Below are positions 3,202 through 49,500 of a DNA stretch of 64,000 nucleotides, one piece after another. The notes under the pieces were generated by a model, which saw only the letters and a list, made by a program, of their open reading frames with translations, was not told where the DNA came from and did no database searches. The DNA is from Amphibalanus amphitrite (taxonomy: Eukaryota; Arthropoda; Thecostraca; Balanomorpha; Balanidae). The stretch covers positions 589,001 through 653,000 of the forward strand of contig NW_024881587.1 of assembly GCF_019059575.1 (NCBI RefSeq), read 5' to 3'. Every line of letters starts with the position of its first letter. Position 1 is the first letter of the stretch. Made by a program: the position numbers and the translations under genes.

Positions 3202-3653
3202 GGGCCTGTTCCAGCGCCTCCAGAAGAAATTCTTGACTGGAGGCTCTACCAGAGGTTTTACTGGAGGCGCTGGAACGCAACCTGGAGATTTCTGGAGATT
3301 GGCGTCATAGATACCAAAAGAATGACGATTGTTCTCTCTTGAAATGCAAAATTTGTTTTCAATTTCAGTTAAAAAGATAAATAAAATTATAGCAATGTAA
3401 TTTTCTTTACATTCAAGTTGTAAAATAATCAAATGTCTTTTGTTTACATTCGTGATTGTCACATGTGCGCCATAATTGTAGACCAGAGCCTCCAGAGAAA
3501 TTTGGACCTCTCAACTCTCTGGAGGCTACTGGAGGTTTCTGGAGCTTTGGCGAGAGCTTTCTGGAGCTTTCTGGAGGCGCTGGAACGCTCTCTGGAGGAT
3601 TCTAGAGCTTTCTGGAGGTTTCTGGAGGTTTCTGGAGGCGCTGGAACAGGCCC
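3202..3653. mobile_element. Harbinger-like MITE, CTGGAG-rich family (copy 1)
   Basis: This 452-bp element has GGGCCTGTTCCAGCGCCTCC at the left and its inverted copy at the right, with TCA on both sides (199-201 of the 3-kb block and 3654-3656). A 3-bp duplication and GGG-starting termini fit PIF/Harbinger. Both subterminal zones are packed with CTCCAGAAA / TTTCTGGAG repeats around an AT-rich core, like multiple transposase binding sites. Other copies lie at 16998-17367, 17440-17578, 18032-26915 (split) and 27637-28541 (split). No transposase is present. Confidence 0.75.
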
Positions 3654-4204
3654 TCATTCTGCCTCCAGGCCATTGAAGCCCTTGATTGAAGCCAGGGTAT
3701 ATAATAGAACAACAGGATTGAAGCGATTGAAGCCATGTGGAAGACACGCACATGGCTTCATGCGCCATAGATAGCCTTGCTTGCGCCAATTATTTATAAT
3801 GAGATTAAAGTTGAGTCCACTAAATTATTGAATAGATTGCTTGCAATCTATTCATGCGAGCAACCATCGAGCAGCTGTTTTTTATCCCCGTATAGGTGAA
3901 AATCAGTAGATCGGGTTAGGTCAGGTTTTTTTTACTTCTGATTAGGCCATGTTTTATTTTCAATATATTTATTTTTTCGATTTTATGGAATTCTGGGAAT
4001 TCTAGAGAGTTTTGTTACGTTACAATTCTGCCGCACTTCGCACACATGGCGCGTAAACATCGAAATTGAAATGGCGGCGGCGGTAGCGGCGGTGGGGGTG
4101 ACATTCATAAGTACCAGAGTACCATTGTACCCAGGTTACACCGGGACCAAGGTTACACCGGGGCCCAGATTACGTTCGGCCCCAGGATTTGAAGGGACCA
4201 TGAA

Positions 4205-10575: not shown

Positions 10576-11432
10576 ACGAGCGAGCGAGCGCAGCGAGCGA
10601 AGCGAGTCTTTTCAATATAACGGAAAAATCTCAGTATGAGCGGCCCGGCCCGGCCCGGCCTGTAACGCTTTTGAGAGGCTTATATCTCAGCAACCGCTGG
10701 ACCGATTGGCCTGCGGTCTTTTTTGCTGGGTAGCCCCATCTCTTCTACCCCGTAATTGACTACTTTTGATACATCTCAGTGACCGTCGTGGCACGTGCCA
10801 CGTGAAAAGTCAAGGGTGTTCAAGCAGTTTTGCAAAAGTAATGATTTTGAGAGGCCCATATCTCAGCAGCGGCTTGAGCGATTGTCTTGCGGTAATTTTT
10901 ATAGGGTAGCTGCATACCTTCTACCAAAGGTCGGATACTCTTGATCTATGTCAGTGACCCCCACTGCACGTGCAAAATACAAAAAGAAGAGGTACCAAAT
11001 TTGTTCCCATTTCAGTAACTCGGTAATTACTGGGGCGATTTCGCTGAAACTTGGCATACAGGTAGGCACCCACCAGGCAATGCATTGCCATGTGTTGCGG
11101 TTAGGGTGCTACTGCACGTGCGCACGTGCAGGGGGCGTTTCCAGATCTCGAGAACGGCTGGGCCGATTGCGCTCAAATTTGGTACACGGTTGGGGACCGG
11201 TTAGTAGGGTGCCGTGCAAAAGTCATTTTGGACCCCGCTTGCACGTGCGCACGTGCAGAATGCCGCTTCCAGATCTCAGGAACGGCTGGGCCGATTGCGT
11301 TCAAATTTGGCACACCGCTAGCGACCGGTTAGAAGGGTGCTTTGCACAAGCCTGTTGGAAGTACCCTCTCGCCCTTCCGCACGTGCAGGGCTCACTATCT
11401 CGCTCGCTCGTTCTTCGCCCAAAAGGCGTTTT
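10576..11432. mobile_element. Helentron/HINE-like insert in the LINE
   Basis: This 857-bp segment sits exactly between LINE codons; the flanking LINE frame (DELVKK...NKVSLLLQ) joins across it. The left end begins ACGAGCGAGCGAG. An inverted copy CTCGCTCGCTCGT occurs about 25 bp before the right end, followed by a small hairpin CGCCCAAAAGGCG. Asymmetric terminal inverted repeats plus a 3' hairpin and no obvious target duplication match the Helentron-associated (HINE) pattern. Inside are monomers with TGCACGTGCGCACGTGCA, the same monomer as in the 18-27 kb array, although the ends differ. An open frame through it (10948-11769) is not credible as a gene. Confidence 0.6.
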
Positions 11433-16997: not shown

Positions 16998-17367
16998 GGG
17001 CCTGTTCCAGCGCTTCCGGAAACCTCCAGAAAGCTCCAGAGGGCATTCCAGCGCCTCCAGAAAGATTCAGAAACTTCCAGTAGCCTCCAGAGTTGGGAGA
17101 TCCACATTTCCCTGGAGGCTCTGGTCTACGATCATGGTGCGCATGTTAGTTGTTACAAGCACAAATGTAAACATTAATTTTACAACTTGAATGTCAAGAA
17201 AATTCATTGGTATTGTTATTATCATTTGTTAAATCTTCCTTACTAAAATTAACAACAAATTATTTGTTAAAAAAAGAAGAAATCTCCAGATTGCATTCCA
17301 GCACCTCCAGTTAAACCTCTGGTAGAGTCCAGTCAAGGAATTTCTACTGAAGATGTTGGAACAGGCC
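16998..17367. mobile_element. Harbinger-like MITE, CTGGAG-rich family (copy 2)
   Basis: It begins GGGCCTGTTCCAGCGCTTCC and ends in the degraded inverted copy TTGGAACAGGCC. The CTCCAGAAA subterminal repeats and AT-rich core match the element at 3202-3653. Flanks CAT and TAT are only an approximate 3-bp duplication, so this copy is older. Confidence 0.65.
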
Positions 17368-17439
17368 TATAGTTCACTCGTGGAATAGGCCAATTGGTGC
17401 ACAGTTGGTGTGAATTAGGTAATATACCTACTCAATATA

Positions 17440-17578
17440 GAAGCCACTGGAAAGTTCGAAAAAGCTCTAGAAGTCTCCAGAGGGTGTTCCAGCTCCTCCA
17501 GAAAGCTCCAGAAAGGTCTCTCCAAAGCTTCAAAACCTCCAGTAGCATCCAGAGAGTTGCAAGGTCCACATTTCGGCA
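17440..17578. mobile_element. Fragment of the CTGGAG-rich Harbinger-like family
   Basis: Repeated CTCCAGAAAGCTCCAGAAA phrases, followed by CTCCAGTAGCATCCAGAGAG and GGTCCACATTTC, match one half of the 3202-3653 element. It is cut off at the MITE that begins at 17579. Confidence 0.6.
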
Positions 17579-17808: not shown

Positions 17809-18375
17809 TACCCACATTTCTCGGTAAATATTTACTTTAGGACCGGCACACTTTTTCAAAGGGAAATTTTCGACAATCTTCCATTATTTGACATCCTAAA
17901 TCAAGAAATGATACTTACATGTTACCAAAACTGCAAAAAGTCACACAAAAACTTGATAAAATCCAGCCATCTCACCCCGCGTTACGTAACGTACACCGAC
18001 GAAATTATACGAATGCGGCGATTACGATATAGGGCCTGTTCCAGCGCCTCCAGAAACCTCCAGAAAGCTCCAGAAAGCTCTAGAATCCTCCAGAGAGCGT
18101 TCCAGCGCCTCCAGAAAGCTCCAGAAAGCTCTCGCCAAAGCTCCAGAAACCTCCAGTAGCCTCCAGAGAGTTGGGAGGTCCCAATTTCTCTGGAGGCTCT
18201 GGTCTACAATTATGGCGCACATGTGACAATCACGGATGTAAACAAAGGACTTTTGACTGATTATTTTACAACTTGAATGTTAAGAAAATTACATTGCTAT
18301 AATTTTGTTAATCTTTCTTAATAAAATTAAAAACAAATTTTGCGTTTCAAGAGAGAACATTTGTCATTCGTTTGG

Positions 18376-21096
18376 TAACCGCAGGTTGTTTGAAAAGACA
18401 AACACTATTCGTTAGAATTGTGTTTTTCTATTGAAAAACAACCGGAGCGGTCCTTCTCCGGGCTATGTTTTGCAAGTCTGGCCGCGAATTGGGGCAACTT
18501 GGGTCAGGCCTAGACGAATCGCTCAATCTTCGTAAAAAGTTCAGGGTATGGGCTCCCGGGGGCGATCTACCTGATGGCACCGGTCGCTACTCGCTTAAAA
18601 CCTCGTGGCACGTGGCACGTGCGATTCCATTTTCCCCATGTTAAGTCAACGGGGTTTTGGACACTTTTTGCGCGATCGCCAATGGCGGGAAAACGAGCCA
18701 AGGAAGAGGTGGTTTTCTTCCCAGCATTTTATGGCAAACACGTTTGGGTACATGCTGGTGTGCGCCGTATACCCCTCAGAACTTCGTAACGTGTCTTTGC
18801 ACGAGGTCAAAGTTGAATTTTTTTCGCTCCCCATGTTAAGTCAATGGGCGTTTTTGCAGAGACTTTTTCATTCGCTCATTGTACAAAATTATATGATACG
18901 ATTTTGTTTAAACTTTTAGGACTTGTTGAGAAAAGACCATAGAATATGTTGTTATGCTTCGTTAAGCTGTCAGAATTCGTTTGTTCTTTTTGAGCTCGTT
19001 TAAAGAAGAATTTTTTTAACATGCAAAGTCAATGGGAGCGTCTTTGCTGCTTTATAACTTTTTACGTTATAGATATATTTAAGTGAAAAGTTGATAGGTT
19101 ATACAACTTTTGATGCTCTTTCCAATGATATATACAACTTTATTGCACGTGGTGCCGTTGTTGAGAAATATAGTAAAAAAGCACGACATTACCGAGATTT
19201 GAGCTCAGACCTATATCGTTACGGTGTCAGGCGGACACCAGGACAGGTGGCGCCGCCGCCGCCCGCATAGCGGCGGGAATGTGAACTAACCTGTTTACCA
19301 CCTATGGTATGGTACCATCGGGGGACCGGCCGCCGTCGGCACCATTTCGGGACTTTGCATCGCAATAAAAGGCTTATTTACAATTGAAAATGGACTAGCG
19401 AGAGTCGTTATGGAATCAGAATTTGATGCTCTACAAAACTAGGCTATTTTCATTGTGATGGCACCACAGACTACACCGCTAACCCCAATAAAGCAGATTT
19501 ATGTCGCGTCATCGATGATTACATATAATGTTTCTTTGATATATATGTAGTCGGGTCTTTCAGCTGCGTCCCTCCCCTCCCTCGCCGCGCCGGCGGGTCG
19601 GCCATCCGCGGCTTGCCGCCCGCCGGCTGCTGGCCGGTCAGCTGGCCGGTCAGCTGGTCGCCCGCGGCTGTCGGTGCAGTGCGGGATGCCTACTTGCGGG
19701 GGGCCGTCGTGGCGGCGCGGCCCGGGTGGACTGGGCGAGCAGTGAGTTGGGGAGCGCTGCGCTGTCGGTGCTCTAGTTTTTATTGCGTTCGCATGATACG
19801 GCTTGAGCCAATACAGAGTGAACTGATTGAGCTGAGCAAGTCTTTATATACATTGAAAAGTAAAGCACTTTTTACTGCATCTACGGTGAGATGCTAGATA
19901 AAATTTATGGTCTACCTAATGGTACCCATTACTTAACAATTAAGTGAATCATTTCGTCGCTAAACTCTCGTAAATTCGTATGTCCGCCTCACTATGGAGT
20001 TTGGACCGTAACGTATGGCTTTTGCTCAGACAGTATACGAACAGGTGACGGGGATACCTCCCATAGAAGGATGCGACACGATTTTACTGCTAAATAGCGG
20101 CCGGCCGCCGTGGGGACGTTTTTGTACGACTTATACCTCGGCAACCACTGGGCTGATACACGTGCGGTTTTTTGTGTGGGGTAGCTTTTTCCCTTCTTTC
20201 ACATAGTGTGCTACTCTCGATGCATATGGGTGACCCCTAACGCACGTTCCACGTACAAAGCCAAGAGGTGCCTGTTTTGTAATAAGTGCAATAGCTCGCG
20301 GTAATTACTGAACCGATTGCGCTAAAACTTGGCATGGAGGTAGACACTTTCCAGGCGATGCATTTCCATGTGTCTTGGTAGGGGTGCAACTGCACGTGCG
20401 CACGTGCAGGGTGACGCTTCCAGATCTCGAGAACGGCTGGACCGGTTGTGTTCAAATTTGGCATAACGCTTGATACCGATCAGTAGGTTGCAGTCATTTA
20501 GTATGTATTTCCATGTGCCACGATTGGGATGCAACTGCACGTGCGCACGTGCAGGATGACGCTTCCAGATCTCGAGAACGGCCGGGCCAATTGTGCTCAG
20601 ATTTGGCACACCGCTAGAGATCGCGTAGTAGGGTGTCTTGCACAGGTCTGCTGGGCCCCAGGTTGCACGTGCGCACGTGCAGGGTGACGCTTCCAGATCT
20701 CAGGAACGGCTGGGCCGATTGCATTCAAATTCGGCACACCTTTAGAGACCGGTTAGTAGGGTGCTGTGCACAAGTCAGTTAGTATGTATACTCATGTGTC
20801 TCGGTTGGGGTGCAACTGCACGTGCGCACGTGTAGGGGTCGCTTCCAGATCTTGAAAACGGCTGGGCCGATTGAGCTTAAATTCGGTACACCGCTAGAGA
20901 CCGGCAACTAGGGTGCCGTCCACAAGTCATTTGGGACCCAGCTTGCACGTGCGCACGTGCAGGGTGAGGCTTTCAGATCTCAGAAACGGCTGGGCTGATT
21001 GCATTCAAATTCGGCACACCTTTAGCGGCGTTACAGAGGTGCTTGCTCAAACAACCTGCGGTCCCGCGATGCGGAGCCCAGCATCGCAGATGCTGG
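18376..21096. mobile_element. Helentron/HINE-like element, copy 1 (full length)
   Basis: This 2721-bp unit starts TAACCGCAGGTTGTTTGA. It ends with the inverted partner TCAAACAACCTGCGGT (about 21046), then about 35 bp containing two potential hairpins (CGCGATGCGG region and CAGCATCGCAGATGCTG) and the final CTGG. These asymmetric terminal inverted repeats with a 3' hairpin resemble Helentron-associated elements. The inside has a conserved 1.2-kb block, a GC-rich block at 19560-19770 and five to six tandem monomers at 20390-21040. There is no Rep/helicase frame; short open frames here are not preserved by any evident constraint. Confidence 0.65.
20390..21040. repeat. Tandem monomers of about 130-145 bp with double E-box palindrome (copy 1)
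   Basis: Each monomer holds TGCACGTGCGCACGTGCA (or a near variant), then a phrase reading CTTCCAGATCTCGAGAACGG, then GCCGATTG and CAAATTTGGCACACC, then a GACCGGTTAGTAGGGTGC phrase. Five monomers are visible here. The same monomer recurs at 23470-23870, 26095-26745 and 11110-11400. Confidence 0.85.
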
Positions 21097-22261
21097 TAAC
21101 CGCAGGTTGTTTGAAAAGACAAACACTATTCGTTAGAATTGTGTTTTTCTATTGAAAAACAACCGGAGCGGTCCTTCTCCGGGCTATGTTTTGCAAGTCT
21201 GGCAGCGAATCGAGACATCTTGATTGGGGCCTAGAGTTTTGCGTTTAGGATCGTAAAAATTTCAGGGTATAGACTTTTGCAGGTGATCTACCTGATGGTA
21301 CCGGTCGCTACTCGCAACAAAAATCATTGCGCGTGCCACGTGCAATTGCATTTTCCCCATGTTAAGTCAACGGGGTTTCGGACACTTTTTGCGCGATCGC
21401 CAATAGCGGGAAAACGAGCCAAGGAAGAGGTGATTTTCTTCCACGCATTTTATGGCAAACACGTTCTGGTACACGCCAGTGTGCGCCGTATACCCGTCAG
21501 AATTCGTTAACTTGAGTTGCACGAGTTTGAAGTTGAACTTTTTTCGCTCCCCATGTTAAGTCAATGGGCGTTTTTGCAGAGACATTTTCATTCGCTCATT
21601 GTACAAAATTATATGATACGATTTTGCTTTAACTTTCAGGACTTGTTGAGAAAAGACCATAGAACATGTTGTTATGCTTCGTTAAGCTGTCAGAATTCGT
21701 TTGCTCTTTTGAAGCTCGTTTAAAAATGAAAAATTTTAACATGGAAAGTCAATGGGAGCGTCTTTGCTGCTTAATAACTTTTTACGTTTAAGATATGTTT
21801 AAGTCAAAAGTTGATATTTTATACAACTTTTGATGCTCTTTCCAATGATATATACAACGTTATTGCACGTGCTGCCGTTTTTGAGAAATATAGTAAAAAA
21901 GCACGACATTACCGAGATTTGAGCTCAGACCTATATCGTTACGCTGTCAGGCGGACACGAGGACAGGTGGCGCCGCCGCCGCCCGCATAGCGGCGGGAAT
22001 GTGAACTAACCTGTTTACCATCTATGGTATGGTACCATCGGGGGACCGGCCGCCGTCGGCACCATTTCGGGACTTTGCATCGCAATAAAAGGCTTATTTA
22101 CAATTGAAAATGGACTAGCGAGAGTCGTTATGGAATCAGAATTTGATGCTCTACAAAACTAGGCTATTTTCATTGTGATGGCATCACAGACTACACCGCT
22201 AACCCCAATAAAGCAGATTTATGTCGCGTCATCGATGATTACATATAATGTTTCTTTGATA
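21097..22261. mobile_element. Helentron/HINE-like element, copy 2 (5' part)
   Basis: It follows copy 1 head to tail with no spacer, begins TAACCGCAGGTTGTTTGA and tracks copy 1 closely until TTTGATA, where copy 3 interrupts. It resumes at 24005 (TATATGTAGTCGG), where it runs only to 24084 before copy 4 begins. Its remaining 3' part is not found, so recombination with copy 4 may have removed it. Confidence 0.65.
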
Positions 22262-24004
22262 TAACCGCAGGTTGTTTGAAAAGACAAACACTATTCGTTA
22301 GAATTGTGTTTTTCTATTGAAAAACAACCGGAGCGGTCCTTCTCCGGGCTATGTTTTGCAAAGTTTGCCGCGAATCAGTACAACTTGATTGGGGCCTAGA
22401 CGAATCTATCAATCTTCGTAAAAAGTTCAGTGTATGGGCTCCCGCAGGCGATCTACCTGATGGCATCGGTCGCTACTCGCTTAAAACCTCGTGGCACGTG
22501 GCACGTGCGATTCCATTTTCCCCATGTTAAGTCTACGGGGTTTTGGACACTTTTTGCGCGATCGCGAATGGCGGGAAAACGAGCCAAGGAAGAGGTGGTT
22601 TTCTTCCCAGCATTTTATGGGAAACACGTTCCGGTACACGCCAGCGTGCGCGGTATACACGTCAGAATTTCGTAACGTGTCTTTGCACGAGGTCAAAGTT
22701 GAATTTTTTTCGCTCCCCATGTTAAGTCAATGGGCGTTTTTGCAGAGACATTTTCATTCGCTCATTGAACAAAATAATATGATACGATTTTGTTTAAACT
22801 TTCAGGACTTGTTGAGAAACGACCATAGAAAATGTTGTTATGCTTCGTTAAGCTCTCAGAATTCGTTTGGTCTTTTTAAGCTCGTTTAAGATTGATAATT
22901 TTTAACATGGAAAGTCAATGGGTGCGTCTTTGGTGCTTAATAACTTTGTACGTTGAAGATCTATTTAAGTGAAAAGTTGTTAGGATATACAACTTTTGAT
23001 GCTCTTTCCAATGATATATAGAGCGTTATTGCACGTTGTGCCGTTTTTGAGAAATTTAGGAAAAAAGCACGACTCTATCGAGATTTGAGCTCAGACCTAT
23101 ATATGGCCTTGGCTCAGACAGTATACGAACAGGTGACGGGGATACCTCCCATTGAAGGATGCAATTTAATGCTAAATATTTGCGGCCGGCCTCCGTGGGG
23201 ACATTTTGTACGACTTCTATCTCCGCAACCAGTGGACCGATACACTTGTGGTTTTGTGTGTGGGGTAGCGTATACCCTTCTTACAAGTATTTTATTATGG
23301 ACGATGCATGCGGGTGACCCCTACTGCACGTGACACGTGTAAAACGAAGAGGTGTCAGTTTTGTAATAAGTGCAATAACTCGGTAATTACTGGGCCGATT
23401 GCGCTGAAACTTGGCATGGAGGTAGTCACCTACCAGGCGATCCATTTTCATGTGCCACAGTAGGGGTGCCGCTGCACGTGCGCGCGTGCAGGGTGACGCT
23501 TCCAGATCTCGAGAACGACTGGGTCGATTGAGTTCAAATTTGGTACACCGCTAGAGACCGGTTAGTAGAGTGCCTTCCACAGGTCAGTTGGGACCCATTT
23601 GGCACGTGCGCACGTGCAGGGTGAGGCTTTCAGATCTCAGGAACGGCCTTGCCGATTGCACTCAAATTCGGCACACTTCTAGAGACCGATCAGTAGGGTG
23701 CCGTGCACAAGTCAGTTAGTATGTATTTCCATGTGCCCCGGCTGGGGTGCAGCTGCACGTGCGTTCGTGCAGGGTGACGCTTTCAGATCTCGAGAACGGC
23801 CAGGCCGATTGAGCTCAAATTTGGTACACCGCTAGAGACCGGCGTAGAGTGTCGTGCACGTCAGTTTGTAGCACACCCACTCCGGTCTGCACGTGCAATG
23901 CTTGTTCTCTCGTTTGGCGGCGGGCGTTTTTGCTGCGTTTACAAAGGTGCTTGCTCAAACAACCTGCGGTCCCGCGATGCGGAGCCCAGCATCGCAGATG
24001 CTGG
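22262..24004. mobile_element. Helentron/HINE-like element, copy 3 (short form, nested in copy 2)
   Basis: This 1743-bp copy has the same ends as copies 1 and 4 but lacks about 1 kb of the middle (it goes from GAGCTCAGACCTATAT straight to GGCCTTGGCTCAGACAG). It carries three monomers with diverged palindromes. Its insertion point in copy 2 is exact: TTTGATA at the left plus TATATGTAG at the right recreate the uninterrupted sequence in copies 1 and 4 with nothing gained or lost. Confidence 0.65.
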
Positions 24005-24084
24005 TATATGTAGTCGGATCTTTCAGCTGCGTCCCTCCCCTCCCTCGCCGCGCTGGCGGGTCGGCCATCCGCGGCTTGCCGCCC

Positions 24085-26802
24085 TAACCGCAGGTTGTTT
24101 GAAAAGACAAACACTATTCGTTAGAATTGTGTTTTTCTATTGAAAAACAACCGGAGCGGTCGTTCTCCGGGGTATGTTTTGCAAAGTTGGCCTGAGATTG
24201 GGGCAACTTGGTCGCAGCCTAGAGTTTTGCGTTTAGGATCGTAAAAATTTCAGGGTATAGACTTTTGCAGGTGATCTACCTGATGGTACCGGTCGCTACT
24301 CGCAACAAAAATCATTGCGCGTGCCACGTGCAATTGCATTTTCCCCATGTTAAGTCAACGGGGTTTTGGACACTTTTTGCGCGATCGCCAATGGCGGGAA
24401 AACGAGCCAAGAAGGAGGTGGTTTTCTTCCCAGCATTTTATGGCAAACACGTTCTGCTACACGCCAGTGTGCGCCGTATACCCGTCAGAATTCGTTAACT
24501 TGAGTTGCACGTGTTTGAAGTTGAACTTTTTTCGCTCCCCATGTTAAGTCAATGGGCGTTTTTGCAGAGGCATTTTCATTCGCTCATTGTACAAAATTAT
24601 ATGATACGATTTTGTTTAAACTTTCAGGACTTGTTGAGAAAAGACCATAGAATATGTTGTTATGCTTCGTTAAGCTGTCAGAATTCGTTTGTTCTTTTTA
24701 AGCTCGTTTAAAAATGAAAAATTTTAACATGGAAAGTCAATGGGAGCGTCTTTGGTGCTTTATAACTTTTTACGTTAAAGATATGTTTAAGTCAAAAGTT
24801 GATATTTGATACAACTTTTGATGCTCTTTCCAATGATATATACAACTTTATTGCACGTGGTGCCGTTTTTGAGAAATATAGTAAAAAAGCACGACATTAC
24901 CGAGATTTGAGCTCAGACCTATATCGTTACAGTGTCAGGCGGACACGAGGACAGGTGGCGCCGCCGCCGCCCGCATAGCGGCGGGAATGTGAACTAACCT
25001 GTTTACCATCTATGGTATGGTACCATCGGGGGACCGGCCGCCGTCGGCACCATTTCGGGACTTTGCATCGCAATAAAAGGCTTATTTACAATTGAAAATG
25101 GACTAGCGAGAGTCGTTATGGAATCAGAATTTGATGCTCTACAAAACTAGGCTATTTTCATTGTGATGGCATCACAGACTACACCGCTAACCCCAATAAA
25201 GTAGATTTATGTCGCGTCATCGATGATTACATATAATGTTTCTTTGATATATATGTAGTCGGGTCTTTCAGCTGCGTCCCTCCCCTCCCTCGCCGCGCCG
25301 GCGGGTCGGCCATCCGCGGCTTGCCGCCCGCCGGCTGCTGGCCGGTCAGCTGGCCGGTCAGCTGGTCGCCCGCGGCTGTCGGTGCAGTGCGGGATGCCTA
25401 CTTGCGGGGGGCCGTCGTGGCGGCGGCCCGGGTGGACTGGGCGAGCAGTGAGTTGGGGAGCGCTGCGCTGTCGGTGCTCTAGTTTGTATTGCGTTCGCAT
25501 GATACGGCTTGAGCCAATACAGAGTGAACTGATTGAGCTGAGCAAGTCTTTATATACATTGAAAAGTAAAGCACTTTTTACTGCATCTACGGTGAGATGC
25601 TAGATAAAATTTATGGTCTACCTAATGGTACCCATTACTTAACAATTAAGTGAATCATTTCGTCGCTAAACTCTCGTAAATTCGTATGTCCGCCTCACTA
25701 TGGAGTTTGGACCGTAACGTATGGCCTTTGCTCAGACAGTATACGAACAGGTGACGGGGATACCTCCCATAGAAGGATGCGACACGATTTTACTGCTAAA
25801 TAGCGGCCGGCCGCCGTGGGGACGTTTTTGTACGACTTATATCTCGGCAACCACTGGGCTGATACACGTGCGGTTTTTTCTGTGGGGTAGCTTTTTCCCT
25901 TCTTTCACATAGTGTGCTACTCTCGATGCATATGGGTGACCCCTAACGCACGTTCCACGTGCAAAGCCAAGAGGTGCCTGTTTTGTAATAAGCGCAATAG
26001 CTCGCGGTAATTACTGAGCCGATTGCGCTAAAACTTGGCATGGAGGTAGACACTTTCCAGGCGATGCATTTCCATGTGTCTTGGTAGGGGTGCAACTGCA
26101 CGTGCGCACGTGCAGGGTGACGCTTCCAGATCTCGAGAACGACTGGACCGATTGTGTTCAAATTTGGCATAACGATTGATACCGATCAGTAGGTTGCAGT
26201 CATTTAGTATGTATTTCCATGTGCCACGATTGGGGTGCAACTGCACGTGCGCACGTGCAGGGTGACGCTTCCAGATCTCGAGAACGGCCGGGCCAATTGT
26301 GCTCAGATTTGGCACACCGCTAGAGATCGCGTAGTAGGGTGTCTTGCACAGGTCTGCTGGGCCCCAGGTTGCACGTGCGCACGTGCAGGGTGACGCTTCC
26401 AGATCTCAGGAACGGCTGGGCCGATTGCATTCAAATTCGGCATACCTTTAGAGACCGGTTAGTAGGGTGCTGTGCACAAGTCAGTTAGTATGTATACTCA
26501 TGTGTCTCGGTTGGGGTGCAACTGCACGTGCGCACGTGTAGGGGTCGCTTCCAGATCTTGAAAACGGCTGGGCCGATTGAGCATAAATTCGGTACACCGC
26601 TAGAGACCGGCAACTAGGGTGCCGTCCACAAGTCATTTGGGACCCAGCTTGCACGTGCGCACGTGCAGGGTGAGGCTTTCAGATCTCAGAAACGGCTGGG
26701 CTGATTGCATTCAAATTCGGCACACCTTTAGCGGCGTTACAGAGGTGCTTGCTCAAACAACCTGCGGTCCCGCGATGCGGAGCCCAGCATCGCAGATGCT
26801 GG
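24085..26802. mobile_element. Helentron/HINE-like element, copy 4 (full length)
   Basis: This 2718-bp copy has the same terminal structure as copy 1 and aligns to it along almost its whole length. It begins after CTTGCCGCCC of copy 2 and ends CAGATGCTGG, directly against the right half of the Harbinger-like host. It has five monomers (26095-26745). The near identity of copies 1 and 4 suggests recent duplication or gene conversion. Confidence 0.65.
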
Positions 26803-27176
26803 GTATCTGTGATGCCAATCTCCAGAAATCTCCAGATTGCGTTCCAGCGCCTCCAGTGAAACCTCTGGTAGAGCCTCCAGTCAAGAATTTCTACTGGAGG
26901 CGCTGGAACAGGCCCATAAACAACGTGTTTGCGCCGTTGCCATTTGCGAAAAGGAAAAATATATGCATGTTAAATTCAATGAAAATGACGTCATAATACC
27001 AAAAAAAATACATATTGGCGAAATTTAGATGGTTAAAAATTGGGTGATATGGGGCAGGATAGCAAATTAAACACGGAAAAAATTATCAGAACATAACCTA
27101 ACCTTACCTAACCTGACCTACTGATATTTGCCTACCCGGGGATAAGGAAAAAGTTGCTCGCATGAATAGATTGCAA

Positions 27177-27305
27177 GCAATGGTAGGTCAAATATTTTTA
27201 GGTTAAGTGATTGTGCATTAGGCTTCAGGCCGATTAGGCTTCAGGCCTTCGGCCTGAAGCCAAATACACAACCACTTAACCTAAAAATATTTGACCTACC
27301 ATTGC
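27177..27305. repeat. Foldback repeat with about 33-bp arms
   Basis: Arms GCAATGGTAGGTCAAATATT and TTTAGGTTAAGTG are mirrored at the right end, ending CCATTGC. The loop contains GGCTTCAGGCC repeats that are themselves palindromic (GGCTTCAGGCCTTCGGCCTGAAGCC-like). The flanking TGAATAGATTGCAAG and TAACCTGACC sequences also occur, inverted, near 3830-3930, so this is part of a wider repeat family. Confidence 0.7.
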
Positions 27306-27636
27306 CTGTAATCTCTCCTAAGGCATTGCCTTCGGCACTGCCGCTGCTTCGCGACGAGAAATTTCATGACGTCACTTTCCTCACAGTTGAATAGCATCGT
27401 TAATATGTATTCACTAAACCTTGGAGCGCAGTGCGTGGCCGGCGGAGTACGCAGTCGGTGGGATCTACGGCGGTGACGGTAAATATTGTATTGGTGCATT
27501 TTAACTTGTTTGTGCCATGAATGACTATCAGCTATGAAATCAAAAGGTCAAATTATGTCATGCGATATGCTTCTTACTATCACTTGGGGTTCGTGACGAA
27601 AGTAATGGCTGCCGGTCCTAAAGTAAATAAATACCC

Positions 27637-28541
27637 ATTTCTCTGGAGGTTCACTGGAGGCTCTGAACTACAATGGTACACATGTGACAATTGTGAATGT
27701 GAACAAAGGAGCTTTGGCCATTAAAGGGACTATCCCACCTTCAAAAAAGTACCGTTTAGGATTTGGAAATGTTACCTACTCATGATATTTTGACTAATTT
27801 TGTTAGTTTTTACGCGTTTTCATCTGATACTTTTTGAGATATTGCGACTCCTATTTCATCGTGACGTCATTTATATCGAATCTGTGACGTAATGAAGGAT
27901 TTACTTCATGTCAATGTGAGGGGAAATTTGGCAGCAAATATATTTTCTCTTAAATATGACGCAGCTCATGCAATAACAAGAGTGTCTCTGATTGGCTTAT
28001 TCGTAAATCAAGTGATACTTCACTTGAATGTGTGACAGGCGTTCAAAAGGCAAATGACGTCATCAGATTGCCGTTAATGGTTAAGAGATTGGGACTTGCG
28101 CAGGGAACATTTTCAAATGAAGGGAACAAATTTCTTCAACACCATGAGGCTGCGGGGGTTGCGACCAAGATAGAAAGTGGTTTCTGAACCTCGCCGCAAA
28201 CTTGGCTATCTCAACTCAAACCTAGTGTAAAGGTGGGAATTGGGATAGTCCCTTTAATTTTACAAATCAAGGTAAAGGAAATTACATTTTTATAATTATT
28301 TAATCTTTTTTACTAAAATCTAACACAAATTTCGTTTTTCAAGACTGAACCATCGCCATTCTTTTCTTTTGATGATTGGTATCCCTGACACTAACCTCCA
28401 GAAATCTCCAGATTGCATTCCTGCACCTCCAGTGAAACCTCTGGTAGAGCCTCCAGTCAAGAATTTCCACTGGAGGCACCAGAACAAGTAGTAAAGTAAT
28501 ATTGGTTCATGGCTGGAACAGGCCCACAGTTGGTCAATGCA
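27637..28541. mobile_element. Harbinger-like MITE (copy 4), degraded and split
   Basis: CATTTCTCTGGAGG at the left and CTCCAGTCAAGAATTTCCAC with a terminal GGCTGGAACAGGCCC at the right match the two halves of the family. The left terminus is missing and about 40 bp of extra sequence precedes the right terminus. A TTAA-flanked element interrupts it at 27725. Confidence 0.6.
27725..28253. mobile_element. TTAA-flanked MITE (piggyBac or Kolobok type)
   Basis: The ends AGGGACTATCCCACCTT and GGGATAGTCCCT are inverted repeats, and TTAA lies directly outside both (27721-27724 and 28254-28257). A TTAA duplication points to piggyBac or Kolobok; the AGGG terminus cannot decide between them. It is non-coding and nested in a Harbinger-like copy, hence younger. 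Confidence 0.75.
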
Positions 28542-29069
28542 GTTTACATAGCCATGGTCAATGCATAATTAGCTGATCCCAAGGCCATGCTGATTCTGCA
28601 AACATCTAGCCATTCTAACCTCCACCAAAGATAGAAAATTAACCCATATGCCAAACAAAGTGTTGCCAGTCACCCTCAATCACCATAAAAAAGCATCTGG
28701 ACTGCTCTGGACCACAGTCCATATTGATATTTTTCGCACTGTTCTTTTCTCATCAGGTTTGCGTTTTGAAGATACATGCAGAGCATATAAAATATTTGTA
28801 TGATAAAGGGAAAGGCAAGCTGCAATGATTTCTACCTTTCTAGATAAATAAAAATATATTTTTGAGATCCTCTATATTCATCATTTTCATTCCTGTTCAT
28901 TTCAAGCATGAAATATCATGAAACTGTAGCAAAGAATGATAAATTGAGGAAAGTGGTGTATTCCATTTAAAGACCAAGCTATCCCTTTTTGTGCTTGTCC
29001 AGACCCCTATGTTGATGTTGGGAAATGCTGAGAATATCCCTTCACTAGTACTTTTTTCATTTCATTCAG
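28542..29069 (+). other. Upstream region of SKI3, AT-rich
   Basis: No exon is recognised. The segment ends at a strong acceptor TTTTTTCATTTCATTCAG (29069), so the SKI3 transcript has at least one upstream non-coding exon. That exon and the promoter are not identified here. Confidence 0.4.
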
Positions 29070-29116
29070 GTCTGGCTGTAAGTAGTAAACAAGCATCAGC
29101 TCAACAGCTAGCTGAA

Positions 29117-32100
29117 ATGGACAAGCACACAAAAGCCCTGCTGAAGTCTGCAAAAGAATTGATTAAGGGAAAAGACCATGGAGGTGCCCTAGAGAAGTGC
29201 AAAGAAGTGTTAGCTGGGGACAAGAACAACTATATGGCTCTTGTATTCAGTGGTGCTTGCTACCAAGAACTGGGTGATGCTGAAAAAACAGTAGAGGCTT
29301 TTCAGGCTGCCACCAAAGTATCACCAGAGCTGCCACTAGCTTGGCAGGGACTGGGGTCATTTTATGAAAAATCGGGTTCTACAAAACATCAAGAGAGTCT
29401 CACTGAAATATATATGAGGCTGTTAAATCTTCTTTCCAGTGACAAAGCGAAGACAGCTGAAATATGTTCCAAGCTGTCTTGGATACTGGTCCACGCTGAT
29501 AAATATGATGAATGCATTGATATATTATATCAATGGAAGGATGCTAGTGGAAGCAACTTTGATCCATCCCGAATCACCTCGATCTTGAAAGAGAAGACAG
29601 TTTCAGACTCTCAGGCTGACAGGGTTAGCAAGCTGTTATCTCCATTGATAACAGAGGATGCATCGAGCAAAAACAAAGAGTTTATTGCCTTCCGAGTGCA
29701 ATTACTGCATCAGCTCAAAGATTGGAAAGAGATGCAAGAATGTGCACAGCATATGTGCACTCTATTTCCAGACAGCGTGGTGGCCATCGAGTGGCTCCTG
29801 CGTGTGTTTGTACTATCAGATGAGAATGTCTCCGATCTGGAAGATCGTCTTGCTTTCATGAACGCCCAGGAACCGGACAACGTGTGGGCCCGTGCCTGCC
29901 GTGGTAAGCTGCTGGCGCAGTCTGGTGACTGGCTGGCGGCGCTAGGGCAGCTTGTGCCGGCCGCGCTGGGTGCCGCCGGAGAGACGGCTGCCGTGCTGGC
30001 GCTCCGCGGCGGTATCGAGCTGCTCGTGCACGGCTACCCGGCAGCCGAGCGCACTCTCCGGGAGGCGCTGCGCCGCTCGTCGGCGGCGGCAAGCGGCCGT
30101 CTCCGGCTGCAGCTGGCGGAGGCGCTGGTGCGACAGGGCGCCGACCGCGCCGCCGAGGCCGAGGCACTGCTCGCAGAGGCCGCTGGCTCGCCGGAGAGAG
30201 ACGCGCTGCTGGCCGAGGCCCGGCTGCGACGGGGAGCTCTGACCGAGGTGGAGGCGGTCACCGCGCCGCTGGAGGTGCGCGCGGCGTGGCTGGTGGCCGA
30301 GCGACGGGCGGATGAGGCGGTGGCACTGCTGGACGGCACAGGTGAGCACTCGCCGCGCAGGCTCCGGCAGCTGGCTGCGGCGCTCTGGGCCGCTGGACGG
30401 CGCGAGGAGAGCGCTGCGCGTTTCCTGGAGGCAGCCAAACTGGACCCGAACCACCCAGAGCCGTTTTACTACCTGGGCCAGTACTACCAGGAGCGCTCTG
30501 ACCAGACTCGCGCGCTGCGCTGCTACCAGAAGGCGTGCCGCCTGAACCCTGGCGAGCCGCGCTGCAGCGCTGCGCTCAGCGACCTGTACCGGGCGCGCGG
30601 CGAGCACGAGCAGAACGTGCGCCTGCTGACGGCCGTCACCGAGAGCCGTCCCGACGCGTCCGTCAGCCGCTGGGCCTGGTTCCGGCTGGGCCTGCACCAC
30701 CTGCAGGCGGGCGAGCCGCAGCGCGCCGTCGTCTGCCTGCAGACGGCCGTCAAGGCGGCGCCCGACGACGCCGTGGCGCTCGAGTGCCTGGGCGACGCGT
30801 ACCGGCTGCGCGGCGCGTACACCTCGGCGGTGCAGGCGTACAGCCGGTCGGCGGCGCTCAGCGAGCAGCCCGTGTACGCGCAGCTGCAGATGGCCGACAT
30901 CCGGCAGCTGCTCGGACAACTGGACGAGGCAGAGGCCGGCTACCAGCAGACGCTCGCCGCTCGGCCCGGCTTCGTGCCCGCTCTGAAGGGGCTCGGCGAG
31001 ACGCACCTGCGGCGAGCGCAGCAGCTGGTGTCCCGCCAGCTGCACGGGCTCGCCCGGGACAGCTGCCAGCTGGCAGCCGACACGCTAACCGCCGCCGTGC
31101 TCGACCAGAGCCGACTCAGTTGTCTGTGGAAGCAGCTCGGCGACGTGCTATGCATGACGGCGGGCCTGCCGCCGCGCTACCGGCGCCTACAGGTGGCCGC
31201 TCAGCTGCTGCCGTGTCCGCCGGCTGACGGCGGAGCGTGCGGCCCGCTCGCCGGCCCGCTGCTGGTCGACGTGGCCATCCGCTGCTACTCACAGGCAGTG
31301 GCCATCGAGAATCTGGGCGGTCTGTGGCACGACCTGGCGCTCAGCTACCGGCTCCGGGCGGGCCTGTATGCCGCCGGCGAGTCGGAGCAGGCGGCGGTGG
31401 CGCTGCGCCGCGCACTCCAGTGTGCTCACAAGGCGACTGGCCTGTTGCCCGGCGACGCCGCCATCTGGAACACACTCGGAGTGATTGCGTGCGAGAGGCC
31501 GGTGGAGGACCGCCGGCTGGCGCAGCACGCCTTCATCAAGTCGCTGCGCTTGCGGGAGACGGCCATGGGCTGGACCAACCTGGCCTGTCTGTACATGGTA
31601 AACGGTCAGCTGAAGCTGGCCAACGAGGCGCTCACCAAAGCGCAGAGCGTCGAGCCGGCGTACGGCGCCGCCTGGACGGGCCAGGCGCTGATCGCCGAGC
31701 AGCTGTCGCCTGAGCAGGCCACCGACCTGTTCCGACACGCCGTGCACCTGCAGCCGCTGGCGCCGGCCGCGCTCGGCTACGGCCGCTGGGTGTGCCGCGC
31801 CCTGCGCGACCCCTCCGTCTGGCACACGGCCCAGTACCGGTTCAACATCGAGCGCATGCAGGCGGTCACTGTGGCCGGCGAGGCGCTCGAGCTGTACACG
31901 ACCGGCGCGCCGGACGACGCGGCCGGCTGGAACATGCTCGGTCTGCTGGCGGAGCGGCAGGGCCGGCACGGCGCCGCCCTGCACGCCTACCAGCGCGCCG
32001 CCGAACTGCTGGCGGGTGCGGACGAGCCCGACTGGGCGGCCGTGGACGCAGCGCGCACCAACAGCGCGCGCCTGCTGACCGCCGCCGGCCGCTACGACGA

Positions 32101-33590
32101 GGCGGTGGCCGAGTACCGCCGGCTGCACGAGGCCAGCTTCCACTCGCAGTGCGGCCTGGCGCTGGCGCTGCAGCGCGCCGGACACGATGAGGAAGCGTAC
32201 TCGGCCTACGAGGCGGCGCTGCACTGGCTCTCGCCCGACGACGCCAACAAGTCACACACGCTGGTGGCCGTGGCGCAGCTGCTGTACCGCTTCGACCGGG
32301 TCAGCGAGGCGCGCACCGAGCTGCTCAAGAGCTTCCAGCTGGAGCCGGCCTCGGAGCAGGGCCTGCTGGCGCTGACGGCTCTGGCGCTGCGCCAGGGCGA
32401 CTCGGCGCTGGCGCTGGCCTGCGAGAGCGAGCTGGCGCAGCGGCGCACCCAGCCGGAGCTGGCCGCTGAGCGGGCGCTGCTAGAGGCGTGCCTGCGGCTG
32501 GCGCGCGACGACTCGACCGGCGCCGTGCGCGCCGTCCAGGCGGCGGTGCACCGCCACCCGCAGCAGGGCGGCCTGTGGCGCCTGTTAGCGGCGGCGCTGC
32601 TGCAGCTGCGGCCGGCGGCCGGCGCTGCCGTCACGGCCGCCACCGCTGCCCGGCGGGTGGCAGCCGCTGGCGCAGAGAGGGACCAGGTGAGTTAGTCAGT
32701 CCCGGAGAGAGGGACGCGCGGACAGGTGATAGTCGCTAAGTCAGTCGGTGTCAAGTCTGGTTGGAATTGTGTGCTACTGCCGAATCTTGTTTTCGGTGAT
32801 GTCATTGTCTGGTCATTAACATCGGATAAAACGAGAGTGGTGTTTTTGACGTGCTTGCCACCAGCGTCTGTGGTGTCGTGCCTTGTGTCACCGACCCCTG
32901 TGCCTCTCCGTCAGATGGTCGGGTGTTTCCCGGGCCCTTAACCTGTCAGGCGGTGTAATTTCTTACTGACCCCCCACCCCCACCTCGTCAGTCGGTGTGC
33001 TGTGTCACTGACCCCCCCCCCCCCCCCACCGTCAGATGGTGTGCTGTGTCACTGACCCCCCACCCCCACCCGGCAGATGGTGTGCTGTGCCACTGACCCC
33101 CCCGTCAGATGGTGTGCTGTGCCACTGACCCCCCCCCCCCCGTCAGTCGGTGTGGTGTGCCACTGACCCCCCCCCCCCCCATCAGATGGTGTGCTGTGTC
33201 ACTGACCCCCCCCCCGTCAGATGGTGTGCTCCCCCCCCCCCGTCAGATGGTGTGCTGTGCCACTGACCCGCCCCCCCCCCCCCCCACCGTCAGGCGGTGT
33301 TGGACCTGGTGTGTCAGGCACAGCTGCAGGCCGGGGACGTGTCGGGAGCGCTGCGCTCCGCCCAGCGCGCCGTGCTGTGGCGGCCCGACTCGCCGTCCGC
33401 CTGGTGCGACCTGGTGGCCGCGCGGCTGGCTGGCCTGCAGTGGGCGCCGGCCGACGGGCGCGGCGCGGCGCTCTGCTGGCTGCGCGCCGCCGTCAGCCGA
33501 CTGCGGCGCGGCCACCGGCTGGCCCGGCCGCTGCACGGCTGGCTCAGCACGGTCGACAGGCGCGTGGAGATGCTGCTCGCCCAGGGCTAG
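29117..33590 (+). CDS. SKIC3: SKI complex subunit 3 (TTC37) homologue
   Basis: SKI3 is the TPR scaffold of the cytoplasmic SKI complex, which with SKI2 helicase and SKI8 feeds RNA to the exosome in 3'-5' mRNA decay. Two coding exons are called: 29117-32686 and 33294-33590, joined in phase 0, giving 1288 residues (human TTC37 is longer, about 1560; insect forms are nearer this length). The start MDKHTKALLKSAKEL, about 47 bases after a splice acceptor at 29069, matches the family N-terminus; KNNYMALVFSGACYQELG and LAWQGLGSFYEKSG are hallmark TPR helices. Later TPRs include PEPFYYLGQYYQERSD (about residues 450-465) and AMGWTNLACLYMVNGQLKLA (about 815-835). The C-terminal exon has a TPR-like ALRSAQRAVLWRPDSPSAW. 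Oddities: a single 3.6-kb exon and an abrupt GC rise at about 29865. It converges with the dynein gene. Confidence 0.88.
32687..33293 (+). repeat. SKI3 intron made of splice-acceptor-like tandem repeats
   Basis: After the donor CAG|GTGAGT, the second half of the intron (about 32905-33293) is roughly ten imperfect copies of a 30-45 bp unit: a C-rich run of 6-17, then GTCAG, then ATGGTGTGCTGTGCCACTGAC. Each unit therefore contains a pyrimidine tract followed by CAG. The true acceptor is the last copy, ACCGTCAG|GCGGTGTTGGAC, whose exon side (GCGGTGT) resembles the repeat. Confidence 0.85.
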
Positions 33591-46538: not shown

Positions 46539-49500
46539 TCATTCCAGCACAGACTCCAGCTTCTCGCCGTCCTGCGCGGAGCGCTGGGCGCCGCCGTCCT
46601 CGATGGCCAGCTGCTCGTGCACGTACACCTTCTCGCCGGTCTTGAAATGCTCCACCGTGTCTCCGGAGCCGTGCAGCACCCACTTCGTGGTGAGCAGACC
46701 CTCCACGCCGACGGGCCCGCGCGCGTGGATCCGGCCCGTGCTGATGCCCACCTCGGCGCCCAGCCCGAACCGGTAGCCGTCAGCGAACCTGGTGCTGGCG
46801 TTGTGGAAGACGCAGGCGCTGTCGACGGCGTTCAAGAACTTCTCGGCGGAGGCGGCGTCTTCTGTGACGATCGAGTCCGTGTGCGCCGAGCCGAACTCGT
46901 GGATGTGCTCGATGGCAGCGTCCACGTCGTCGACGATCTCGATGCAGCAGGCGAGGTCGCCGTACTCTGTCCGCATAGAGGGCGCTGGCGGCGGCCCGAA
47001 GGTGAGCTGCTTGTGCAGACGCGGACCGGCATACAGCCGCACGCCGTTGTCCTTCAGCAGCTGGCAGACGTTGTTGAAGAGGTTGGGCACCTCCATCAGG
47101 TCCTTGTGCAGCAGCAGGGTCTCCATGGCGTTGCAGGCGGCCGGGTAGTCGCACTTGCTGTCCTTGACTGAAATGACGGGAGACGGGCTGGTTAGACAGA
47201 TAACGAAAAATGCGAGGTAAATTATTTCTTACAGTATGCAGAACACCGATAATTGCAAGGCGAATTATTACTATAAAGACCTGAGACCATTAATCGTTAT
47301 AAACTGTTCTGCTTCCGGTGACGTTATACAAACGTAATAGGCAAAGTGAATAGTAATAATGAAGCAAATTACACATAAGACGGAAAAAAATTAACGTTCT
47401 CGACGTCTCGATCAAATTATATAAGCGCTCTTACTAGTGATGTCAATTACGGAAAATCGGAATACAGATACCAAACCAAATACCAGCCAAAACCACGGGA
47501 AAATACCGAAACCAAACCAACTTGGGGAACTGAGGGAAATACCAACTTTTTACCGATTTCTTAGCCTCTTATACATTAGTGAGGGCTTATGATACCAACA
47601 AAATACCAAACACATTACGATTGAAATACCAAATACCAAGTTGGTATCGGTTTGGTATCGGTATACCAAAATGTTGGTATCCGATTGACATCTCTAGTTC
47701 TTACCGATTTCCAGGGCCTTGTTCATGTCGGCGTTCTTGTCAATGTAGACGTGGCAGACGCCCTCACTGTGTCCCAGCACGGGGATGTGCCTGCTCTGGT
47801 CCTGGATGTGGCGCACCAGCTCGCCGCTGCCGCGCGGGATCACCAGGTCGACGCAGTCGTCCAGCTGCAGCAGGTCCGAGATCTCCTCGCGCCCGCTCAC
47901 CTGCCGCAGGTGGAACGAAAGGCGTCAGCAGCGCGCCTCTGGCGCCCAAACAGAACATTAGGTAAAATCGAGATGACCCTGAATACAGTCAAAAGAACGG
48001 ACAGCGTAACGCCAGCCATGGATCGACACGGGTATCGGCGAAAATCGGGGAGCCCATTAGACGGATATCACATTTCAGCGGCAGTAGATGCCGGGTACAC
48101 GCACCAGGCCGACGGCGCTAGTGGCTCCGACGGTCGAGAGCGCCTCCTTGACCAGCGACATCAGGTACTCGTTGCTGTGCTTGGCCTCGCGTCCGCCCTT
48201 CAGCAGCAGCCCGTTGCCGGTGCTGATGGCCAGGGACGCCACCTGGCGGCGGGAAACGGTCAGCTAATGCATCGGATGGTGGGACACGGGAGGGGGAGCC
48301 GGCAATCACACGGCAAATACAGCATCAACTAGTTTAGTAGTTATTTTATCGATATTTAAAATTGATTCATTACGAAGACGGCGAATACCAGCAGGACCGG
48401 GCTGCAAATCACTCAGTTTCCCACAGTGCCGACACGGGTGAGGTGCGCACCTGGGGCAGGCAGTCGGGCCGCGACTCGAAGATGACGAGCAGCACGCCGA
48501 GCGGCACGGTGACCTGGCGCAGCTCCATGCCGGAGGCCAGCTGCGTACGGCGCAGCACGCGGCCCAGCTGGCGGCGCCCGTCGGCGGCGATCTGGCGCAG
48601 CCCGGTGGCCAGGTCGGCCAGCTTGGCCGGCGTCAGCTTCAGACGCGCCTGCATCGCCTCGCTGAGGTTCTCGGCCTTGGCCTTCTTCAGGTCCACCTCG
48701 TTGGCGGCGATGATGTCTGCGCAGCGCGACTCGAGCAGCGAGGCGAGCGTGTTGATGACGTTGGCCCGCTCCTGCCAGCTGAGGGACTGCAGCACCCGGC
48801 TACCGCGGCGGGCTGCAGCACAGATGACGGAGATTAGCTCAGTTACACATGTATCGGCGCTACAGGTCGAGCAGCATTGCAAACGTCAAACGAGAACACC
48901 AGACTTGACCAGACTGACCACAACACTGCATCAATGAGTGCCATCTACGATACGATGTGGAAATTTGGCGCCCATTCATTTGCTGTGAAAATAGAACACT
49001 AGCTAAAAGGTACCAAATCGAACCAAACAGGGACTTGCATCGTCTGCTGCTATCGCCGGGCAGGCACACCACATGCAGCGAATTCACTCACCTCCCTTGG
49101 CGAGTACCTCCACGGCCATGCCGCCGGGGTTCGTCTTGGCGATGAAGGTGCCGACCCTCCTGCCGGCCACGATGTCCTTGATGGCGTTGTCCTTGAGGCC
49201 GTTGCAGATGACCACCGAGACGCCGTGGTCCAGCGCCCAGACGGCCGCCTTCGACTTGGAGTCCATGCCGCCGGTGCCGACGCGCGACTTGCCGCCGAAC
49301 TGGATCTCGTCGTGCGAGCTGGGCACGAATGTGTCGATGAGCCGGGCGCCGTCCTGGTCGGGCGGCCGGTTGTACAGGCCGTCCACGTCCGTCATCAGGA
49401 TCAGCAGGTCGGCGTGCAGCTGGGCGGCCAGCCGCGCCGCCAGGCTGTCGTTGTCCTTGATGCTGATCACCTGAAGTAAAGCGCCGACACATATTAGGCG

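Follow-up and report, generated by a model that had tools for sequence, protein, structure and literature searches.

Background

Among rolling-circle-type transposable elements, Helentrons are described as inserting within TT, with a variable number of T at their ends, and the non-autonomous HINE/DINE-1 elements as carrying subterminal inverted repeats at distances of 2-4 nt (5' end) and about 38-60 bp (3' end) (PMC4067079, Thomas et al. 2014; this and the other papers are cited here from excerpts). Helentron-type elements have also been discussed as carriers or sources of satellite-like DNA. We describe here a family that fits this class in Amphibalanus amphitrite. The starting point was a group of four copies in a stretch of 64,000 nucleotides (contig NW_024881587.1, positions 589,001 to 653,000, here C90:589001-653000), called the window below; the analysis was then extended to the genome (807.6 Mb, 2644 contigs).

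In Fusarium oxysporum, FoHeli elements are reported to insert between TNAT and A (T in one legend). Some of them carry duplicated 5' heads of 31, 65, 73 or 85 nt with one 3' end, explained by self-insertion; evidence for circular forms is given, and one element lies 2 bp before the 5' end of another (PMC5148889, which also cites centromeric Helitron arrays of plants). Helraiser has precise junctions, forms double-stranded DNA circles and reuses its donor repeatedly after DNA synthesis (PMC5876387). Bat copies of Helibat may abut others, adjacent insertions being one of three sources given for 39 unusual ends among 395 copies (PMC4778049), and tandem Helitron arrays are cited from plants and bats (PMC4778049, PMC5876387). 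The excerpted accounts of the silkworm Helitron and of DINE-1 in 12 Drosophila genomes make no mention of 'nested' or 'orientation'. How and why Helitrons and Helentrons integrate, form tandem arrays and give rise to multi-headed copies is unsettled. No genome-wide case of copies joined to the 5' front of others was found in a literature search that left subscription journals mostly outside, so that one may be published.

Results

One-way arrays across the genome

The first-pass annotation of the window had proposed a genome search with the two termini of the element. This search returned 3416 exact 5' termini (1895 + 1521), for a reversed-pattern control of zero, and 1657 exact 3' ends; the 3' pattern being longer and stricter than the 5' pattern, the two-fold ratio is to be taken as a hint only. 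At the 5' terminus, T precedes AACC in 3407 of the 3416 cases. The copies are strongly clustered: among the first 100 5' termini listed, 91 had a neighbour within 3.5 kb, and the 75 consecutive pairs at this distance were all on the same strand. A sister family, with 5' end TAACCGAAGGTTTGTTG and 585 exact copies, served as a control and proved mostly dispersed, a neighbour within 3.5 kb being present for 5 of the first 100 copies listed.

The joints themselves have one direction. Head-to-tail joints (GCTG, 0-3 bases, TAACC) were found at 928 places genome-wide, head-to-head joints at three, and tail-to-tail joints at none; among the first 54 3' ends listed, 32 were directly followed by a 5' end. 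The window is one instance of this polar array pattern, which is strong, real and unusually clear. The three head-to-head places (C291:297019, C1512:84433 and C1634:30714) all hold one identical perfect 34-bp palindrome. On C1, two arrays face each other (C1:1636403-1636433, + strand, and C1:1674646-1674676, - strand), and in both of them a 3' end has GCTTACTGCAGAACAATTA as its flank; this is possibly an inverted duplication.

Four copies inside one MITE

The window had been described as holding a nested array of four Helentron-like elements within a Harbinger-like miniature inverted-repeat transposable element (MITE). The start motif TAACCGCAGGTTGTTTGA indeed occurs exactly four times in the window, at 18376, 21097, 22262 and 24085, always on the + strand, and the inverted motif TCAAACAACCTGCGGT three times, at 21047, 23955 and 26753. 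With up to three mismatches, 0.08 chance matches to the two motifs are expected, and none of 100 shuffles reaches seven. Copy 1 (18376..21096, + strand) is complete, reads TAACC...GATGCTGG and measures 2721 bp, over all of which it is 100% identical to a unit lying in an array on another contig (C6:2299971-2302691). Copy 2 starts right after it, head to tail as had been claimed. Its 5' part (21097..22261, + strand; 92.4% identity to copy 1 over 1170 aligned positions) is followed by copy 3 (22262..24004, + strand), a complete 1743-bp copy of a short subtype nested at a TA site, past which copy 2 resumes for element positions 1167-1246 (24005..24084, + strand), without a 3' terminus. Copy 4 (24085..26802, + strand; complete, 2718 bp) begins exactly at this break, and the rest of copy 2, after element position 1246, was not found downstream in the window.

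Some of the initial description must be amended accordingly. The inverted motif and hairpin end attributed to the copies are present in copies 1, 3 and 4, and copy 2 lacks its 3' end; 'nested' applies to copy 3, whereas the other joints are head to tail, copy 2 being broken at the start of copy 4. Copies 1 and 4, called near identical, share 96.2% identity over 2723 aligned positions, and the truly identical partner of copy 1 is the one on C6. The absence of Rep and helicase from the copies was borne out by a Pfam profile scan, in which none of nine open reading frames taken from them (27 are listed in the region) had a match above the family cut-off. An Rfam search of the window gave no match.

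The surrounding MITE (18032..26915, split by the array) has perfect 22-bp terminal inverted repeats (arms 18032-18053 and 26894-26915) flanked by ATA (18029-18031 and 26916-26918). A second copy without the array (3202..3654, - strand; 93.9% identity over 458 positions) is flanked by TGA and provides an empty site. Terminal inverted repeats and a 3-bp target duplication characterize PIF/Harbinger MITEs, and the split host repeat has both, in keeping with the initial assignment.

Insertion sites and element ends

Filled and empty sites, whose comparison had also been proposed, were available at two places, to which the check for target-site duplication applies. Copy 3 was inserted between A and TA of copy 2 with nothing duplicated: the site reads ...GATA|TAACC...GCTGG|TATATGTAG..., against an uninterrupted GATATATATGTAG in copy 1. 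For the array in the MITE, the empty site CTTTTGG|TATCTATG corresponds to a filled site GTTTGG|TAACC...GCTGG-G-TATCTGTG, with one G extra and otherwise no duplication. Head-to-tail joints likewise differ in how many G close the 3' end (TG, TGG, TGGG).

The 5' terminus (18376..18460, + strand) consists of a subterminal repeat, AACCGCAGGTTGTTTGA, and a long imperfect hairpin at element positions 3-76, whose predicted DNA fold (-17.4 kcal/mol, z -4.39) was matched by none of 200 shuffles. This hairpin is kept in most of 24 distinct sampled heads, and its core also in two sister-family heads. In a 29-pair structure fitted to the heads, 91% of cells were paired, compared to 40-56% when it was slid; covariation, with one pair being changed on both sides, was equalled by 71 of 500 shuffles and thus not significant. 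The 3' terminus (21047..21096, + strand) comprises TCAAACAACCTGCGGT, then a terminal hairpin CCAGCATC-GCA-GATGCTGG with an 8-bp stem and a 3-nt loop. The fold of the 54 nt at 21043-21096 is only moderately above shuffles (z -1.76, 12 of 200 as good); variant 3' ends with CCGG/CCGG for CCAG/CTGG preserve the pairing. A single nucleotide separates the subterminal AACC-GCA-GGTT from the 5' end, and 34 nt separate its inverse from the 3' end. Tandem repeats with units of 145, 128 and 280 bp, containing CACGTGCGCACGTG, lie in the 3' half of copy 1 (20391..21025, + strand). Just upstream of the 3' ends at 21096, 24004 and 26802, an alternative hairpin GCGATGC...GCATCGC overlaps the terminal one. The 3' end could toggle between these two folds, of which the terminal hairpin alone appears in the predicted fold.

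Exact 5' joints, variable 3' breaks and rare remainders

To characterize the joints, we sampled seven stretches picked for holding clusters, together 200 kb of array sequence, plus the window and three short loci. Among the 97 matches to the 5' motif, 35 were preceded by an internal point of a same-strand copy and 30 by a complete 3' end. One of the latter (C6 52637) is really a truncated copy, its score as a 'full 3' end' being an artefact of a reference entry itself truncated. A further 29 were preceded by other or unassigned DNA, and three scored as opposite strand are due to the 3' repeat, matched in its reverse complement. More commonly than being nested, a copy, whole or 3'-truncated, is joined head to tail to the one after it, exactly at the latter's 5' end, and no opposite-strand insertion was seen at the 35 truncated junctions.

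Seen from the other side, the 38 sampled 3' ends were followed by a 5' end in 25 cases, by a same-strand remainder in four and by something else in nine, two of these nine being sister-family 5' ends. Leaving those two aside, the 11 ends without a 5' end after them were followed by TA (six), by G and TA (two) or by other letters (three). On these letters, the element looks as if it could be written TAACC...GCTGG, landing mostly before TA, that is, in an X|TA-like target.

If nested copies had simply interrupted older ones, remainders would be expected to follow. Of 29 distinct truncated junctions, two, each at a TA site, had a matching remainder in a search downstream and within the fetched stretch. 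In compiling this set, three repeats of one junction were counted once, and junctions with flanks unaligned to the last base were dropped. At 13 of the 29 the next base of the truncated element is not T, and the T of the joint must therefore have been supplied by the downstream copy.

Relatedness of neighbouring units

If arrays grew by local doubling, neighbours should be each other's closest relatives. Units of at least 70 nt were compared over their first 700 nt at most. None of 27 long truncated units had at least 99% identity to the next copy (mean rank percentile 0.60). Identity to the neighbour was below 95% in 18 of these 27 pairs and in 17 of 22 complete pairs, and subtypes of different length alternate in the arrays. 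The low neighbour identity, together with the match of copy 1 on C6, indicates that many units came from elsewhere.

Short heads (<320 nt, n = 14) behaved differently, five of them showing no mismatch to the next copy (mean percentile 0.76); gaps were uncounted, and in one of the five cases random copies match almost equally well. In two arrays, on C7 and C9, the host flank and the head are repeated together, which indicates local copying. Production in place thus accounts for some of the short heads and for a few whole units. Genome-wide, a second 5' end stands 21-51 nt after the first at 62 places, 36 of them at 51 nt, and 52-82 nt after it at 93 places, 17 at 69 and 10 at 72 (spacings only). 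The letters were seen for six of the 36 double heads at 51 nt, and five of these have the same break; the spacings of 69-72 nt would end close to the base of the 5' hairpin. The recurrence of equal spacings on many contigs suggests that a double-headed unit can also be mobilised as a whole.

The sister family as acceptor

The array elements are also joined to the sister family: a 3' end of the present type (GCYG, 0-3 bases) stands before a sister-family 5' end at 34 places genome-wide. Among the matches listed, no unit lies downstream of the sister copy in four arrays (C5, C9, C16 and C42); on C40, the upstream unit at the joint may itself be a sister copy. Since the sister copy lies downstream-most in these four cases, few as they are, they suggest that the resident copy offers its 5' edge as acceptor, with arrays being extended at this edge.

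Candidate Rep partners

The genome holds 148 matches to Helitron_like_N. The upstream flanks of 16 of the 148 Rep loci (L029-L038 and L041-L046) were read over about 2-7 kb, ends further out being beyond this reach. The 5' terminus was absent from them at up to four mismatches, and the sister-family 5' motif and the 3' motif (up to 3-4 mismatches) gave chance-like weak matches only. By eye and among the matches listed, no Rep match on C1-C16 lay near a family 5' terminus, and none lay near 3' ends or sister-family 5' ends. Family F on C2217 lacks the same ends in the 7 kb read; upstream of a Rep gene there (L035), repeats 71-79% similar to those of the element's 3' half were found. L035:3143-6197 holds two repeats of 1.5 kb, 88% alike, parts of which resemble the CACGTGCGCACGTG repeats; a long (TAGGG)n tract adjoins them. 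Three Helitron_like_N loci each, on the same strand and 11-13 kb apart (about 13 kb on C2217), are present at C173:3165-29388 and C2217:7200-34954, and autonomous relatives thus also seem to stand in one-way series.

Other features of the window

Seven kb upstream of the array, a fragment at 10888-11390 has 73-84% similarity to positions 1788-2669 of copy 1, in the 3' half of the element, and a related older element thus lies there. More pieces of the CTCCAG-rich MITE family (66-85% identity) occur at 16998-17367, 17439-17574 and 28257-28486, and an inverted repeat with 66-nt arms, 92% complementary around a 15-nt spacer, at 27168-27314. Three long open reading frames have a tentative assignment by eye: 28943-32695 (+ strand) may encode a TPR-repeat protein of SKI3/TTC37 type, 46539-47228 (- strand) a 4-hydroxyphenylpyruvate dioxygenase, and 54282-58325 (+ strand) a Gypsy-type gag-pol.

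Discussion

A proposal for the one-way arrays

The explanation that we favour as a whole, at a probability of about one half, is that incoming copies are joined to the origin front of resident ones, with an additional local route for heads and with Rep acting in trans. The elements, being non-autonomous, would be mobilised by a Rep-helicase encoded elsewhere. Rep would recognise the 5' terminus and cut before its first base, X|TAACC, in donors and residents alike; we infer a nick before the T of TAACC because the 5' joint is the same in nearly all copies. The X|TAACC boundary of a resident copy would then double as an acceptor, and incoming strands, complete or 3'-truncated, would be joined directly before the resident 5' end in the same direction, leaving polar head-to-tail arrays extending on the 5' side. 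In the local route, the free 3' end made by the nick would copy k bases and stop early, and Rep would rejoin the displaced 5' end to the early stop, giving [1..k][1..N] in place; such double-headed units may afterwards move as one. Tentatively, the family may use its own 5' origin and that of its diverged sister family as a preferred landing site, one-way arrays being a record of successive and also of aborted replication. Enzyme, nick and sequence of events all belong to a proposal, which has two live rivals, nesting followed by loss and local duplication.

Several points weigh against this proposal, beginning with the Rep-helicase itself, as no Rep locus with these ends was found (16 of 148 sampled). 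On C12 and C13, a sister-family 5' end lies about 80 bp away, unjoined. The equal spacings of double heads may reflect the spread of one composite and not repeated events, and tail-to-tail and head-to-head joints, being palindromes, may drop out during cloning or assembly. At 16 of the 29 truncated junctions the element would continue with T past the break, above expectation (P = 0.003), and at nine with TA, for about two expected (P = 6e-5). Some truncations are therefore likely to be true nesting, with the remainder lost or unseen. Finally, complete units (n = 22) are on average closer to their neighbours than random (mean percentile 0.69, z 3.15; two at >=99% identity), and an array on C9 contains three 2055-bp units 99.9% alike over the first 700 nt, so that local duplication also contributes.

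The TA excess is what would be expected if copies had simply inserted into one another at TA sites and recombination between the two tails had afterwards removed what was left of the older copy. Copy 3 in copy 2 is precisely such an insertion, another nest closes at C6:2311235, and self-insertion is, in the excerpted text, the published reading of multi-headed FoHeli elements (PMC5148889). As an account of the arrays we nevertheless consider it unlikely. It leaves unexplained why none of the 35 truncated junctions is on the opposite strand, why the break is not followed by T in 13 of 29, and why remainders were found for only two within the fetched stretches; none was found even where the remainder would measure some 20-50 bp (breaks 2667, 2697 and 2794), a length at which recombination is unlikely. 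Nesting as the sole process is disfavoured by the sampled junction and remainder counts. The uniform direction could alternatively come from the replication fork, with insertion only into the single-stranded lagging-strand template and hence one direction per replicon, as is reportedly the case for the bacterial single-strand transposon IS608. In excerpt, PMC5876387 states no more than that IS608 depends on replication for its single-stranded DNA. A fork effect would not explain landing exactly on 5' ends, and consecutive sister-family pairs 20-200 kb apart were in the same direction in four cases and opposite in eight (among the first 100 listed), which makes the fork a very improbable cause.

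A uniform direction is also expected from satellite-like growth, in which a single head-to-tail pair, formed once, is amplified through unequal crossing-over or the insertion of multi-copy circles. The C9 units and the closeness of complete neighbours point the same way, as does the C6 array, in which units 10-11 repeat units 1-2 over 700 nt. The identity below 95% in most long truncated and complete pairs, and the alternation of subtypes of different length, make such growth rather improbable as the general cause, and in-place duplication as the sole process is disfavoured, most neighbours not being each other's closest copies. That the family is no rolling-circle element at all, and is instead a DNA transposon of the cut-and-paste type carrying long subterminal repeats, would fit the inverted repeats near both ends and the lack of a same-end Rep in the 16 flanks. 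This is hardly credible given a nested copy without target duplication, asymmetric ends, a terminal hairpin, and 5' ends that are precise where the 3' ends vary.

Should joining at the resident 5' end be true, the arrays would amount to a natural run-off assay of the Rep enzyme, and to a record of copying. With thousands of joints in one genome, and a mostly dispersed sister family as control, the question can be put in numbers: a near-invariant 5' joint, free 3' breaks, one direction and few remainders. The choice among self-insertion, concatemers and origin-targeted joining thereby becomes testable.

Comparison with known systems

The element differs from canonical Helitron1, which has 5' TC, 3' CTRR, a hairpin 10-12 nt before the end and an A|T target: here the element reads TAACC...GCTGG, with the hairpin at the very end and an X|TA-like target. 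The same holds for the published Helibat and Helraiser, which have canonical Helitron ends and an A|T target. Its anatomy fits a non-autonomous HINE/Helitron2-type (Helentron) element, in view of the subterminal inverted repeats, the 5' hairpin and 3' terminal hairpin, the absence of target-site duplication and the genomic Helitron_like_N matches. The HINE/Helentron layout read by the first-pass annotation is therefore upheld for repeats, hairpins and lack of duplication, and fails for the target, which does not look like TT. As in the HINE/DINE-1 elements of the excerpted account (PMC4067079), the subterminal inverted repeats are palindromic, although slightly nearer to both ends than published, and there are a 3' hairpin, internal tandem repeats, a high copy number and no coding capacity. 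The 5' inverted repeat lies partly within the subterminal repeat, also a HINE trait, and the two comparable sites lack a target-site duplication. Differences from HINE/DINE-1 are the X|TA-like target in place of TT, a variable number of G and not of T at the 3' end, a partner with the same ends not found in the 16 flanks, and the occurrence of most copies in head-to-tail arrays.

FoHeli, again from excerpts (PMC5148889), resembles the present family in having T and A in its target, short duplicated 5' heads, and a case of one element standing before another. In Fusarium these are described for some copies, whereas here 155 places have two 5' ends spaced 21-82 nt apart, truncations are of many lengths, and head-to-tail joints number 928.

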